NCBI GenBank assembly: GCA_902826615.1 | Contig: CADEFN010000005.1 | Span: 372,001 to 436,000, forward strand | Length of the DNA stretch: 64,000 bases | Direction: 5' to 3' | From: an uncultured Gemmatimonadota bacterium | GTDB lineage: Bacteria > Gemmatimonadota > Gemmatimonadetes > Gemmatimonadales > Gemmatimonadaceae | Shown here: piece after piece, positions 4,669 through 8,010 of the stretch | Numbering within the stretch: the first letter of the stretch is position 1 | Layout: each line of letters opens with the position of its first letter | Translations under genes and position numbers: made by a program | Notes under the pieces: generated by a model | The model's input: the letters and a program-made list of their open reading frames with translations, nothing else | The model's database searches: none | Told to the model about the DNA's origin: nothing

Positions 4669-5250
4669 CTACTGGTTGCGCCTCCAGGCTTCGTAGCGCT
4701 GGACTTCGGCATCCAGCTCCTTGAATGCCTCGGTGGCGCGGAAGCGCGTGTAGAGCTGCTCCTGCGCGCGCAGCTGGTCGAGCAGACGTTTGGACATCTC
4801 GCCGACCGGCAGCTCCATGAGAATGATGGCACGATACAGCGTGCCCTCGGTGCGGAGCACTTGCTGGCGTGGCCTGGTGCCGATGAGCGTCGTGCTCACC
4901 ACGCCCTTGTACACCTGCGTGTACTGATCGAGGAGCTGGGCCCCTTCACGCCCCACTTCTTCCACGAAGCGTTTGTTGAGGGCGCCGTATTTCACCTCGA
5001 GGCCCTGGGCGATGGCGTTACGCGCGTCGGCCTGCGCCTTGTTGATGGCGATCTGCACGTCACGCGAGACGGCTGTCGCAGTGCCGAAGAGATAGTTGTT
5101 GTCGGTCGGCGGCTTGAGGTACCACCCGGGGAGATTGTTGATGGTCTCCTTGCTCGCCGGTGGGGTGAGATCGACGAGGGGTTTCGGGCCTCGGCTGCAA
5201 GCAGCAATCGAGAGCAGGACGGCGAACGAAAATACGATTGGGCGATTCAT
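4669..5250 (-). CDS. LPP20-family lipoprotein (third gene of caspase operon)
   Basis: The 193-aa protein has a lipoprotein signal with lipobox IAAC (Cys18). The core begins NNLPGWYLKPP and FGTATAVSRDVQIAINKAQADARNAIAQ, the pattern of the LPP20 fold first named from Helicobacter, in which a swapped helix packs on a sheet. A long amphipathic C-terminus follows (KRLLDQLRAQEQLYTRFRATEAF). It is expected in the outer membrane or periplasm. It lies 63 bp downstream of the DUF4384 gene on the same strand, with no obvious terminator between, so one operon with the caspase-like gene is likely. Function of the family is largely unknown. Confidence 0.8.
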   Translation of the reverse strand: MNRPIVFSFAVLLSIAACSRGPKPLVDLTPPASKETINNLPGWYLKPPTDNNYLFGTATAVSRDVQIAINKAQADARNAIAQGLEVKYGALNKRFVEEVGREGAQLLDQYTQVYKGVVSTTLIGTRPRQQVLRTEGTLYRAIILMELPVGEMSKRLLDQLRAQEQLYTRFRATEAFKELDAEVQRYEAWRRNQ

Positions 5251-5313
5251 GGGGGGCTCCGCGCGGACCTTCGTGTGAAGTATCGACCGCGTCGTGCGAC
5301 ACCTGAACTCGTG

Positions 5314-6132
5314 TCAGCGCAGGCGCACCGAATAGGGGGCGAAGGCCATGGCGCGCTGCCCGACGGGGACGGTCACGAGCCAGCGCTGCAGGTCGAGCAG
5401 CGTGCCCTGCTGTGGGGGCGGCACGGTGGCACCAGTGACCGCGACGGCCACGAGGAGTTCGTCCCGTTCGGCGCGAGCCAGGTCGCGCGTGACGCGAAAG
5501 CGCAGTCCCCTGGCTCGCCAGGTGGGCTCGGGCACTTCGGCCGACTCCCCGGCCCGCAACTCCACCTGTGCCACGTAGGCGTTGGGGACGAGCGTGATGA
5601 GTGAGTCCCCGTCGAGGGAGAACAGGAATACGCGCGTGTCGCGTGTGCTCTGCACGACGGCCACCAGTTCGTCGTTGTCGCGAAGGTGCGCCGACGACGC
5701 TACGAGCCCGCTGCGAGGCAGCGAGAGCTGCAGCTGAAAGCCGGCATCGGGTTCACCTGTTTCGCGCTGGACCGTGACGGCAAACGAGGCGCGGTAGTAG
5801 AGTTGCTCGCCCGTTCCGGCAAGCGCCACCGGTTCCCAGGCCTCACGGACAAGCCTGACATCAACAGCGCGACCGGCGGCGTCGAGCTGGACAACACTGC
5901 GATAGTCTGACGCGAGGGCACGAGGGGACTCAGTGGTGGTGGCAATCGCCGTGGAGCGCACTCGCACACCGGCCACCTGTCGCACCGCTTCGGCCATGGC
6001 ATCCTCGCGTGCTTGACGACGGGCCATGGCGGGAGTCCGCGCGTCGCTCATCAGCACGCGCTGCTCCACCACCACGGTTTGGGCGCCAAGGGCAGGACCG
6101 GCGAGCCCCACGAGGAGAAGGAGATGGCGCAT
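5314..6132 (-). CDS. Exported DUF4384-domain protein
   Basis: The 272-aa product has a signal peptide (MRHLLLLVGLAGPALGA). Residues ~20-140 resemble an LPP20/FlgT-N-like unit (ARRQAREDAMAEAVRQVAGVRV, an Ala-rich helix preceding the barrel-like strands). Residues ~150-250 contain the DUF4384 pattern, with an FLFSLDGDSLITLVPN-type strand pair and an end near RDELLVAVAVTG. DUF4384 domains are commonly found beside or fused to caspase-fold proteases, which matches the immediate upstream neighbour. Its start codon abuts an octamer GCCTAACG that also contains the stop of the caspase gene, so the two genes are only 2 nt apart. Confidence 0.75.
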   Translation of the reverse strand: MRHLLLLVGLAGPALGAQTVVVEQRVLMSDARTPAMARRQAREDAMAEAVRQVAGVRVRSTAIATTTESPRALASDYRSVVQLDAAGRAVDVRLVREAWEPVALAGTGEQLYYRASFAVTVQRETGEPDAGFQLQLSLPRSGLVASSAHLRDNDELVAVVQSTRDTRVFLFSLDGDSLITLVPNAYVAQVELRAGESAEVPEPTWRARGLRFRVTRDLARAERDELLVAVAVTGATVPPPQQGTLLDLQRWLVTVPVGQRAMAFAPYSVRLR

Positions 6133-6134
6133 GC

Positions 6135-7919
6135 CTAACGACGAGACTGCAGACGGGCGATGATCCGCGTCGAGTCGCGCGCGATCGTGAGCGGGTGCTG
6201 CTCCCGGTCGGCTGCTGCCGCTGCACGCTGGACGGCACGTTCGGTGAAGCTCCCGAGTTCGGTGATGCTGATGGCGCCATCGCGATCGGTGTCGGCGCGG
6301 CCCTGCAACCCCCGCGCGAGGTTCCAGGTGAAGACGCCATGTTGTTCGGCGGGGAGATCCCCGGCTACCTGTGTGCCGCGCGAGGCCAGCAAGACGGCCA
6401 TGTTGCGCCTCACAAGGGCCGGGTGTTCGATGGAGACAGCGGCAGCGCGCGTGCCGGGGACAAGAGCACGCCCGGAGCGAGTGAGGCCCGAGAAACAGGC
6501 GTCGACGATAATGGTGATGGAGCGTGCCGGGAGTCTCGCCAGGTGATCAAACAGGGCGTGCAGGTCGAGGCCGGTCTCTTCAGCGTAGCTGGCGTCACCG
6601 TCGGTCGGGAGGAGGATCGGAGTGCGGGCGTCGGCCGCGAGTACGCCGTGTCCCGCGAAGTAGACCACGATGTCGGAGTTCACGGTGGCCCGGCGTGCCA
6701 GCCAGCCGCGCTCACCCAGCAGACGCCGGAGTTCACTCCCGGTGGCAGTGCTGTCGGTGCGGAGGGCGAGGTGTGCGGCGTCGTCGGGCACACCTAACGT
6801 GCGGGTCACATAGGTGTGCACGAGCCGGGCATCACGCGCCGCATACCGGGCCTCGGGCAGCCGCCGGTACCGCTCGACCCCAATCACCACGGCGAGTGCG
6901 TCGGGATTGAGCGAGGTCGCGGAGGGGGCGTCGTCCACGGTGCGCTCGGCGCTCGTCCCGGCGACTGCGACCGGTGCGGCGGGCTGGACCGGGATGGGAA
7001 TGCGAATGCGCTGCGGAGTGTCTGCTGGCCACACGAGCACGACCAGTTCGGTAGCGACGGATGCTGTGGGTGTGTAGACGGTCAGCCGGACTTCCGTCGA
7101 GTCATCCGGCGCGAGGGGCGGAAGCCAGAGGGTGTCCGGCGTGCCTGCCACGGGGACGAGATGTTCGCTGCGCAGCAGATGCAGCGGCGCGAGCCCCGAA
7201 CTCACTGGGCTGGCATTGCGTATCCAGAGGGAGAGATCGGCAAACTCACGCGGCGCCAGGCGGCCGTCGCCCGAGGCATCGCGCAGGGTAAAGCGCTGCA
7301 GCGTCAGCAGGGGAGCGGGAGCGCCACCACTGCTGCTGCGCTGGCTTGCCTGGCGAGCGACGGTCGCGCCGAGTGCGGCGTGGGCAAGGGAGTCGTCAGG
7401 TGGCGAGAGCCGCAAGCCGGCGTCGTGGCGTCGCCATCCCGTCACGCGTAACGACGTGGCGCTCACCCGTACAACACTCCGGCCATACGAGAGGTACAGG
7501 GTATGACCCTTGGCGTCGCGAGTGATGGCCCATGGGGTGCCAAGCAGACGAGCGACGTCTCCGAGGTCGGTGCCTAACGCGACCAGGGTATCGCGGGTGT
7601 GGTGTTCGGTGCGCAGGCTGAGCTTGAGGGCGCGCCGCGGGTCATGCCACGCCACCACGCGGCCCGTGGTCGGGTCAAAAGTGACCGAGGCACCTTCGTA
7701 TCGCCAATGTTCGAGGCCCTGTGAAGCCAGCCGCTCAATGACCTGTGGTGGACCTTGCACCTGGCGCACCTTCTCGCGCAAATCACCGAGCGAGAAGCGG
7801 GCAGGCACCTGAGCGGCGAGTGCGGCGGCACAGACAAGCGGGAGCACGGCGGCACGCGCCACGATGCGCTCCGTGTGTGTAGCCGCGATGGCGAGTGTGG
7901 CGAGGGAGGGCCGTGGCAT
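6135..7919 (-). CDS. Exported caspase-like (C14) protease with EF-hand loops
   Basis: 594 aa. A hydrophobic export segment at about residues 20-37 is followed by a 300-residue region with no clear family, then a caspase fold from ~340 (LAVVIGVERY). The catalytic dyad is visible: His424 in VVYFAGHG and Cys475 in IIVDACFSG. Two canonical EF-hand-type loops are present: D214-x-S-x-D-G-x-L-x-x-x-E225 before the protease domain and D543-T-D-R-D-G-A-I-S-I-T-E554 near the C-terminus. Calcium dependence, as in metacaspases, is therefore plausible. An export signal on a bacterial orthocaspase suggests action in the periplasm. First gene of the operon with the DUF4384 and LPP20 genes. Confidence 0.85.
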   Translation of the reverse strand: MPRPSLATLAIAATHTERIVARAAVLPLVCAAALAAQVPARFSLGDLREKVRQVQGPPQVIERLASQGLEHWRYEGASVTFDPTTGRVVAWHDPRRALKLSLRTEHHTRDTLVALGTDLGDVARLLGTPWAITRDAKGHTLYLSYGRSVVRVSATSLRVTGWRRHDAGLRLSPPDDSLAHAALGATVARQASQRSSSGGAPAPLLTLQRFTLRDASGDGRLAPREFADLSLWIRNASPVSSGLAPLHLLRSEHLVPVAGTPDTLWLPPLAPDDSTEVRLTVYTPTASVATELVVLVWPADTPQRIRIPIPVQPAAPVAVAGTSAERTVDDAPSATSLNPDALAVVIGVERYRRLPEARYAARDARLVHTYVTRTLGVPDDAAHLALRTDSTATGSELRRLLGERGWLARRATVNSDIVVYFAGHGVLAADARTPILLPTDGDASYAEETGLDLHALFDHLARLPARSITIIVDACFSGLTRSGRALVPGTRAAAVSIEHPALVRRNMAVLLASRGTQVAGDLPAEQHGVFTWNLARGLQGRADTDRDGAISITELGSFTERAVQRAAAAADREQHPLTIARDSTRIIARLQSRR

Positions 7920-7986: not shown

Positions 7987-8010
7987 GGGCCCTGACGGTT
8001 GTCAGGGCCC
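7987..8010 (-). terminator. Hairpin terminator after the amidohydrolase gene
   Basis: A perfect 10-bp stem GGGCCCTGAC/GTCAGGGCCC with a 4-nt loop sits 43 nt past the stop of the minus-strand amidohydrolase gene and 68 nt before the caspase-like gene. No strong U-tract follows, so it may be rho-assisted or act as a processing hairpin. It separates two minus-strand transcription units. Confidence 0.55.

Follow-up and report, generated by a model that had tools for sequence, protein, structure and literature searches.

An orthocaspase with a predicted export segment is encoded beside DUF4384 and LPP20-family partners in Gemmatimonadota and other phyla

The window analyzed here is a stretch of 64,000 nucleotides from an uncultured Gemmatimonadaceae bacterium (contig CADEFN010000005.1, positions 372,001 to 436,000). 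Between positions 4669 and 7919, three consecutive genes on the minus strand encode, in 5' to 3' order, a caspase homologue, a DUF4384 protein and an LPP20-family lipoprotein (Table 1), at the place and with the 2-nt gap and the order that an earlier note, made from the sequence alone, had given them. Because a strong hairpin parts them from an upstream amidohydrolase gene, the three genes probably constitute a transcription unit of their own, of which the hairpin is probably the boundary. The hairpin has no T-run and is hence no textbook terminator, and no sigma-70 promoter was recognized in a scan of the locus. The amidohydrolase was considered as a further member of the unit and rejected, both on account of the hairpin and because its position 5' of the caspase gene, seen in G004 (L035), is not shared by G002 (L033). 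An alternative GTG start of the caspase gene at codon 20 (window position 7862) has a GGAG 6 nt upstream, and the export segment of the protein is retained with either this start or the ATG at 7919.

Table 1. Coordinates of genes, domains and other features of the caspase locus (window positions).
Feature	Position	Strand	Remarks
Strong hairpin between upstream amidohydrolase gene and caspase gene	7987..8010	-	region -47.6 kcal/mol, z -3.3
Caspase gene, 594 aa, family C14	6135..7919	-	ATG at 7919; PF00656 match
N-terminal export segment of caspase, hydrophobic stretch then AALAA/Q	7809..7919	-	conserved within same genus
BamE-like pattern of two helix-strand repeats, residues 48-92 and 119-163	7431..7778	-	structure model
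Ig-like/CARDB-type domain, residues 205-309, holds loop 1	6993..7307	-	structure model
Loop 1 DASGDGRLAPRE, residues 214-225	7245-7280	-	start of Ig/CARDB-like domain
Caspase domain, residues 335-594	6138..6917	-	H424, C475, D363/D473
EF-type loop 2 DTDRDGAISITE, residues 543-554	6258..6293	-	between two helices
DUF4384 protein gene, 272 aa, predicted exported	5314..6132	-	2 nt past caspase stop codon
SHS2-like N-domain of DUF4384 protein, residues 18-123	5764-6081	-	model and profile
Ig-like DUF4384 domain, residues 126-272	5317-5757	-	model
LPP20-family lipoprotein gene, 193 aa	4669..5250	-	63 nt beyond DUF4384 protein gene

The caspase matched the Pfam family Peptidase_C14 (PF00656) over residues 342-578 with an E-value of 4.6e-12. 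An AlphaFold2 model built on 18 sequences had a mean pLDDT of 75.7, mostly above 80 across the caspase domain, and compared well with metacaspase-4 (Z 23.2 over 222 residues, rmsd 2.6) and with MALT1 (Z 22.8). The catalytic dyad is H424/C475; both residues were kept in 140 of 143 related caspase domains, the other three being truncated or poorly aligned. Together with D363 and D473, the dyad residues were invariant across 32 diverse caspase domains. From knowledge of metacaspases and MALT1, we take D363 and D473 to be the positions that make the S1 pocket acidic, and cleavage after Arg or Lys is predicted on the basis of their invariance. The NCBIfam model for EACC1-associated caspases was not reached (77.2 bits vs the curated cut-off of 140). 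The best reading of these features is that of an orthocaspase of predicted basic specificity, sited in the envelope.

This siting is suggested by the N-terminus, where a hydrophobic stretch ends in AALAAQ; the signal segment and the His-Cys dyad reported in the earlier note were thus both recovered. Partner-bearing relatives of the caspase from other clades carry a lipobox (L158, L120), as do several out-group caspases. The protease accordingly appears, from its sequence features, to be extracytoplasmic and exported to the periplasm, and nothing in the sequence pointed to the cytoplasmic location that had been named as counter-evidence. Two further kinds of domain precede the protease domain in the model. 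For the BamE-like repeats, a single caspase homologue matched PF04355 below the cut-off (E 1.2e-4) and the window caspase gave no match, while CARDB was matched by 7 of 18 caspase homologues (best E 2.2e-7).

The earlier note had also credited the protease with two canonical calcium loops, a description that proved slightly overstated. Both loops exist, and loop 2 (DTDRDGAISITE) is canonical, having the EF ligands D1, D3, D5 and E12 and, in the AlphaFold2 model, flanking predicted helices at residues 529-541 and 552-569; its Pfam EF-hand score was sub-threshold (18.3 vs 25.9 bits). Loop 1 (DASGDGRLAPRE), where the Ig/CARDB-like domain starts and position 3 is Ser, is accordingly not a helix-loop-helix EF hand. 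A CARDB domain structure with two metal ions exists, going by the title of PDB entry 3IDU. Loops of the loop 2 type were present in 109 of the 143 caspase domains, among them two caspases of the same genome that have no detectable signal (L040 and L041). Hence, judged by its sequence distribution, loop 2 is a feature of the caspase clade and no adaptation to the periplasm. Several members of genera g13 and g33 have lost it and keep the module; of the losses that the earlier note had named as counter-evidence, that of the C-terminal loop thus occurs in several homologues, and that of the dyad does not. As a hallmark of the module the calcium loops were therefore rejected. Calcium binding by loop 2 is plausible, and any calcium at this position may have a structural or modulatory part that is common to the caspase clade.

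These observations bear on the function first proposed for the locus, a periplasmic protease triggered by calcium and serving self-killing or defence. An EF-type loop with all four ligands between two helices fits this proposal, as does the requirement of metacaspases for calcium (PMC5756287). The generic occurrence of the loop and its loss in g13 and g33 argue against it, orthocaspases have been described as calcium-independent (PMC5756287), and MaOC1, an orthocaspase that was assayed, is independent of calcium as well (PMC7475262). The calcium trigger is thereby weakened. No result pointed to self-killing or defence: the loci that were read showed no defence genes, PADLOC matched nothing beyond a generic caspase model, and the DUF4384 protein had no match in phage records, on which grounds a role in defence or conflict was rejected; caspases on plasmids all had less than 60% identity. 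We regard a calcium-triggered protease for self-killing or defence as decidedly improbable. Elsewhere in the same genome, a caspase joined to an nSTAND1 NTPase (L042:4667-7777) has the typical layout of an intracellular conflict system, and another (L041:7708-9540) has, unusually, a copper-binding plastocyanin/azurin domain at its C-terminus.

Of the two partners, the DUF4384 protein has a signal segment (MRHLLLLVGLAGPALGAQ) and was modeled with a pLDDT of 88. Its own match to PF14326 was below the cut-off (E 8.8e-5, 22.9 vs 27 bits); all 24 aligned family members matched this profile, with a best E-value of 7.9e-16. Comparison with PDB structures, including Foldseek, covered the Ig-like half of the model only and identified residues 126-272 as an Ig-like sandwich (Z up to 8.9), an arrangement that is common. 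For the N-domain, the secondary structure predicted from the model, read without superposition, gave the element order strand-helix-hairpin-strand-strand, which is compatible with a beta-hairpin inserted after the helix and before the second core strand. The same order has been described for FlgP, in which the hairpin insert is the basis of rings (PMC12222027). The best PDB match of the N-domain profile was, at a borderline E-value of 0.0048, a lipoprotein chain of 9HMF, an entry for the Campylobacter jejuni flagellar motor scaffold. FlgT_N was matched below the cut-off, at best with E 1.6e-4 in one family member and with 0.039 in the window protein. Homology of the N-domain to the SHS2 domain of FlgP/FlgT is thus a borderline assignment. 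The third protein matched LPP20 (PF02169) above the Pfam cut-off (27.9 vs 25.9 bits), has the lipobox IAAC with Cys18, and belongs to a family whose profile matched Helicobacter pylori Lpp20 (5OK8, E 8.8e-5); it is expected to reside in the outer membrane. A close mutual relationship between LPP20 and the DUF4384 N-domain was rejected, the hhalign probability being only 3-5%. Of the earlier note's reading, a caspase outside the cytoplasm is supported whose conserved unit also encodes an exported DUF4384 protein and a lipoprotein of outer-membrane type.

We then compared the locus with other genomes. Of 395 genomes searched in the phylum, 28 had relatives of the DUF4384 protein and 29 had relatives of LPP20, namely the same 28 and one more (Fisher p about 5e-42 for co-occurrence, a statistic that ignores the tree). 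All three genes occurred together at most loci read in the phylum. In a broad collection of 78 caspase loci, both partners lay within 8 kb at 22, of which 9 were Gemmatimonadota records, while the DUF4384 protein alone was present at 13 and LPP20 alone at 1. Outside the phylum, 13 of the 67 caspase loci not labelled Gemmatimonadota had both partners within this distance (two of them, L171 and L181, overlap on one contig). These 13 loci belonged to alpha- and betaproteobacteria, Ignavibacteriales, Krumholzibacteriota and Neomarinimicrobiota, and conservation of the unit was thus observed within and beyond the phylum. That the three genes are loose neighbors without a common function could be argued from the altered gene order and the insertions at some loci (L033, L110). 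The co-occurrence of the partners and the recurrence of the trio across phyla make this barely credible.

The module also occurs in several variants, and the accessory domains of the caspase differ among them. Some genomes have both partners without an adjacent caspase (L121, L122). In most proteobacterial cases, and likewise in G042, a TPR lipoprotein, sometimes with a GNA1162/LpoB-like region, is encoded between the partners. The extended cluster of G042 (L120:4977-15755) comprises genes for a TPR-trypsin protein, a DUF4384 protein, a GNA1162-like TPR lipoprotein, LPP20 and two caspases, one of which has an FGE-sulfatase domain. In G022 (L038:1-5035), a gene for a Ser/Thr protein kinase comes before the module, whose caspase is without N-terminal repeats. 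In G023, which has no FlgI, a lone LPP20 gene is followed by one for an exported protein of 580 aa without a Pfam match (L039:9217-10959).

A flagellar accessory is one alternative: like FlgP and FlgT, LPP20 and the SHS2-DUF4384 protein would encircle the motor as a ring or disk at the outer membrane, and the caspase would trim or remodel this structure. FlgI was above the cut-off in 105 of the 395 genomes and in 21 of the 28 with partner genes (p 3.6e-8). At the level of genera, counting eight with partner genes, the hypergeometric p was about 5e-5; neither value takes the tree into account. FlgI was likewise present in all 17 sampled genomes in which the caspase of the window lineage was read, two of these caspases being cut at the N-terminus by a contig end. 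In G016, G234 and G325, moreover, flgI is 7-18 kb away from the cassette, whose neighbors are chemotaxis or flagellar genes, and the genome of the window, which is flagellated, has no other LPP20 or FlgT_N-like protein. Against this stand the window cassette itself, which is not near flgI (located on another contig), the absence of the module from most flagellated genomes of the phylum, and G003 (74% complete, outside the sample of 395), where the module is present and FlgI was not found. In addition, genomes that lack FlgI (g33 genomes and G310) have a form of the module in which the BamE-like repeats are missing, whereas g33 members with FlgI are without the module. On these last two grounds, flagella are no general requirement for the module. 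Its link to flagella is suggestive and not general, and we consider a flagellar accessory unlikely.

Taken together, the results lend good support to the idea of an exported caspase module linked to the outer membrane. The features computed for it are the conserved gene order, the intact dyad, the S1 acids, the domain layout and the export features. We favor, with some reserve, a conserved cell-envelope protease module in which an exported orthocaspase is held or regulated by FlgP/LPP20-type partners and cuts envelope substrates. The two partners would form an outer-membrane-associated scaffold, possibly oligomeric, which could position or restrain the caspase by way of the Ig-like and BamE-like domains; the enzyme would then cleave envelope substrates after Arg or Lys. 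Against this reading count the borderline FlgP/FlgT homology, the low hhalign probability, the variable gene order and caspase accessory domains, and the genomes in which no caspase adjoins the two partners. The export features, the Ig-like domains and the predicted basic specificity would also suit a protease that matures surface or secreted proteins, comparable in role, though not in family, to gingipains, PorU and other exported proteases of clan CD. Neither a linked secretion system nor an obvious substrate gene was seen at the locus, and the partners suggest a scaffold, so that a maturation protease seems quite unlikely. Of similarly low probability is a more specific proposal, namely that SHS2-DUF4384 and LPP20 build a ring or disk beneath the outer membrane which recruits the caspase and activates it on the oligomer. 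If true, the protein family that provides the flagellar FlgP/FlgT rings would also supply bacteria with an envelope platform for caspase activation.

The earlier reading is thus partly supported, and the observation on which it was built is confirmed. In the open-licence papers searched, a unit of exported caspase, DUF4384 protein and LPP20 was not found. Bacterial caspase homologues are mostly discussed as intracellular enzymes of death or signaling; the cross-phylum unit would place such a homologue in the envelope, next to proteins related to outer-membrane ring formers. It gives a concrete candidate complex for purification, points to a likely compartment for substrates, and allows the calcium response of bacterial caspases with EF-type loops to be tested directly.

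Several known systems resemble parts of the module. With orthocaspases of family C14, such as MaOC1 of Microcystis, the window caspase shares the HC dyad, the caspase fold and the expected Arg/Lys specificity; it differs in its predicted export and N-terminal BamE-like and Ig-like domains, and in having its partners, including an LPP20 lipoprotein, encoded by separate genes. DUF4384 has already been reported fused to some orthocaspases (PMC6426788, PMC8283722), in line with the association with caspase-fold proteins stated in the earlier note, and a caspase that ends in a DUF4384-like region, the same pairing in one chain, is encoded in the genome of the window (L127, region G000:C6:85150). 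In the window, by contrast, the pair is made up of two proteins, both predicted to be exported, and the DUF4384 protein carries an SHS2-like domain in addition. Eukaryotic metacaspases resemble the window caspase in the caspase fold and in having an acidic loop with possible calcium binding; in the window caspase, the candidate site is an EF-type loop. Finally, FlgP, FlgT and Lpp20 constitute an SHS2-like family that includes outer-membrane disk or ring proteins (PMC12222027). The window LPP20 falls within the Lpp20 family, and for the DUF4384 partner the model predicts an SHS2-like domain into which a beta-hairpin is inserted, at a borderline sequence match; unlike FlgP and FlgT, this partner adds an Ig-like domain and is encoded next to a protease gene.
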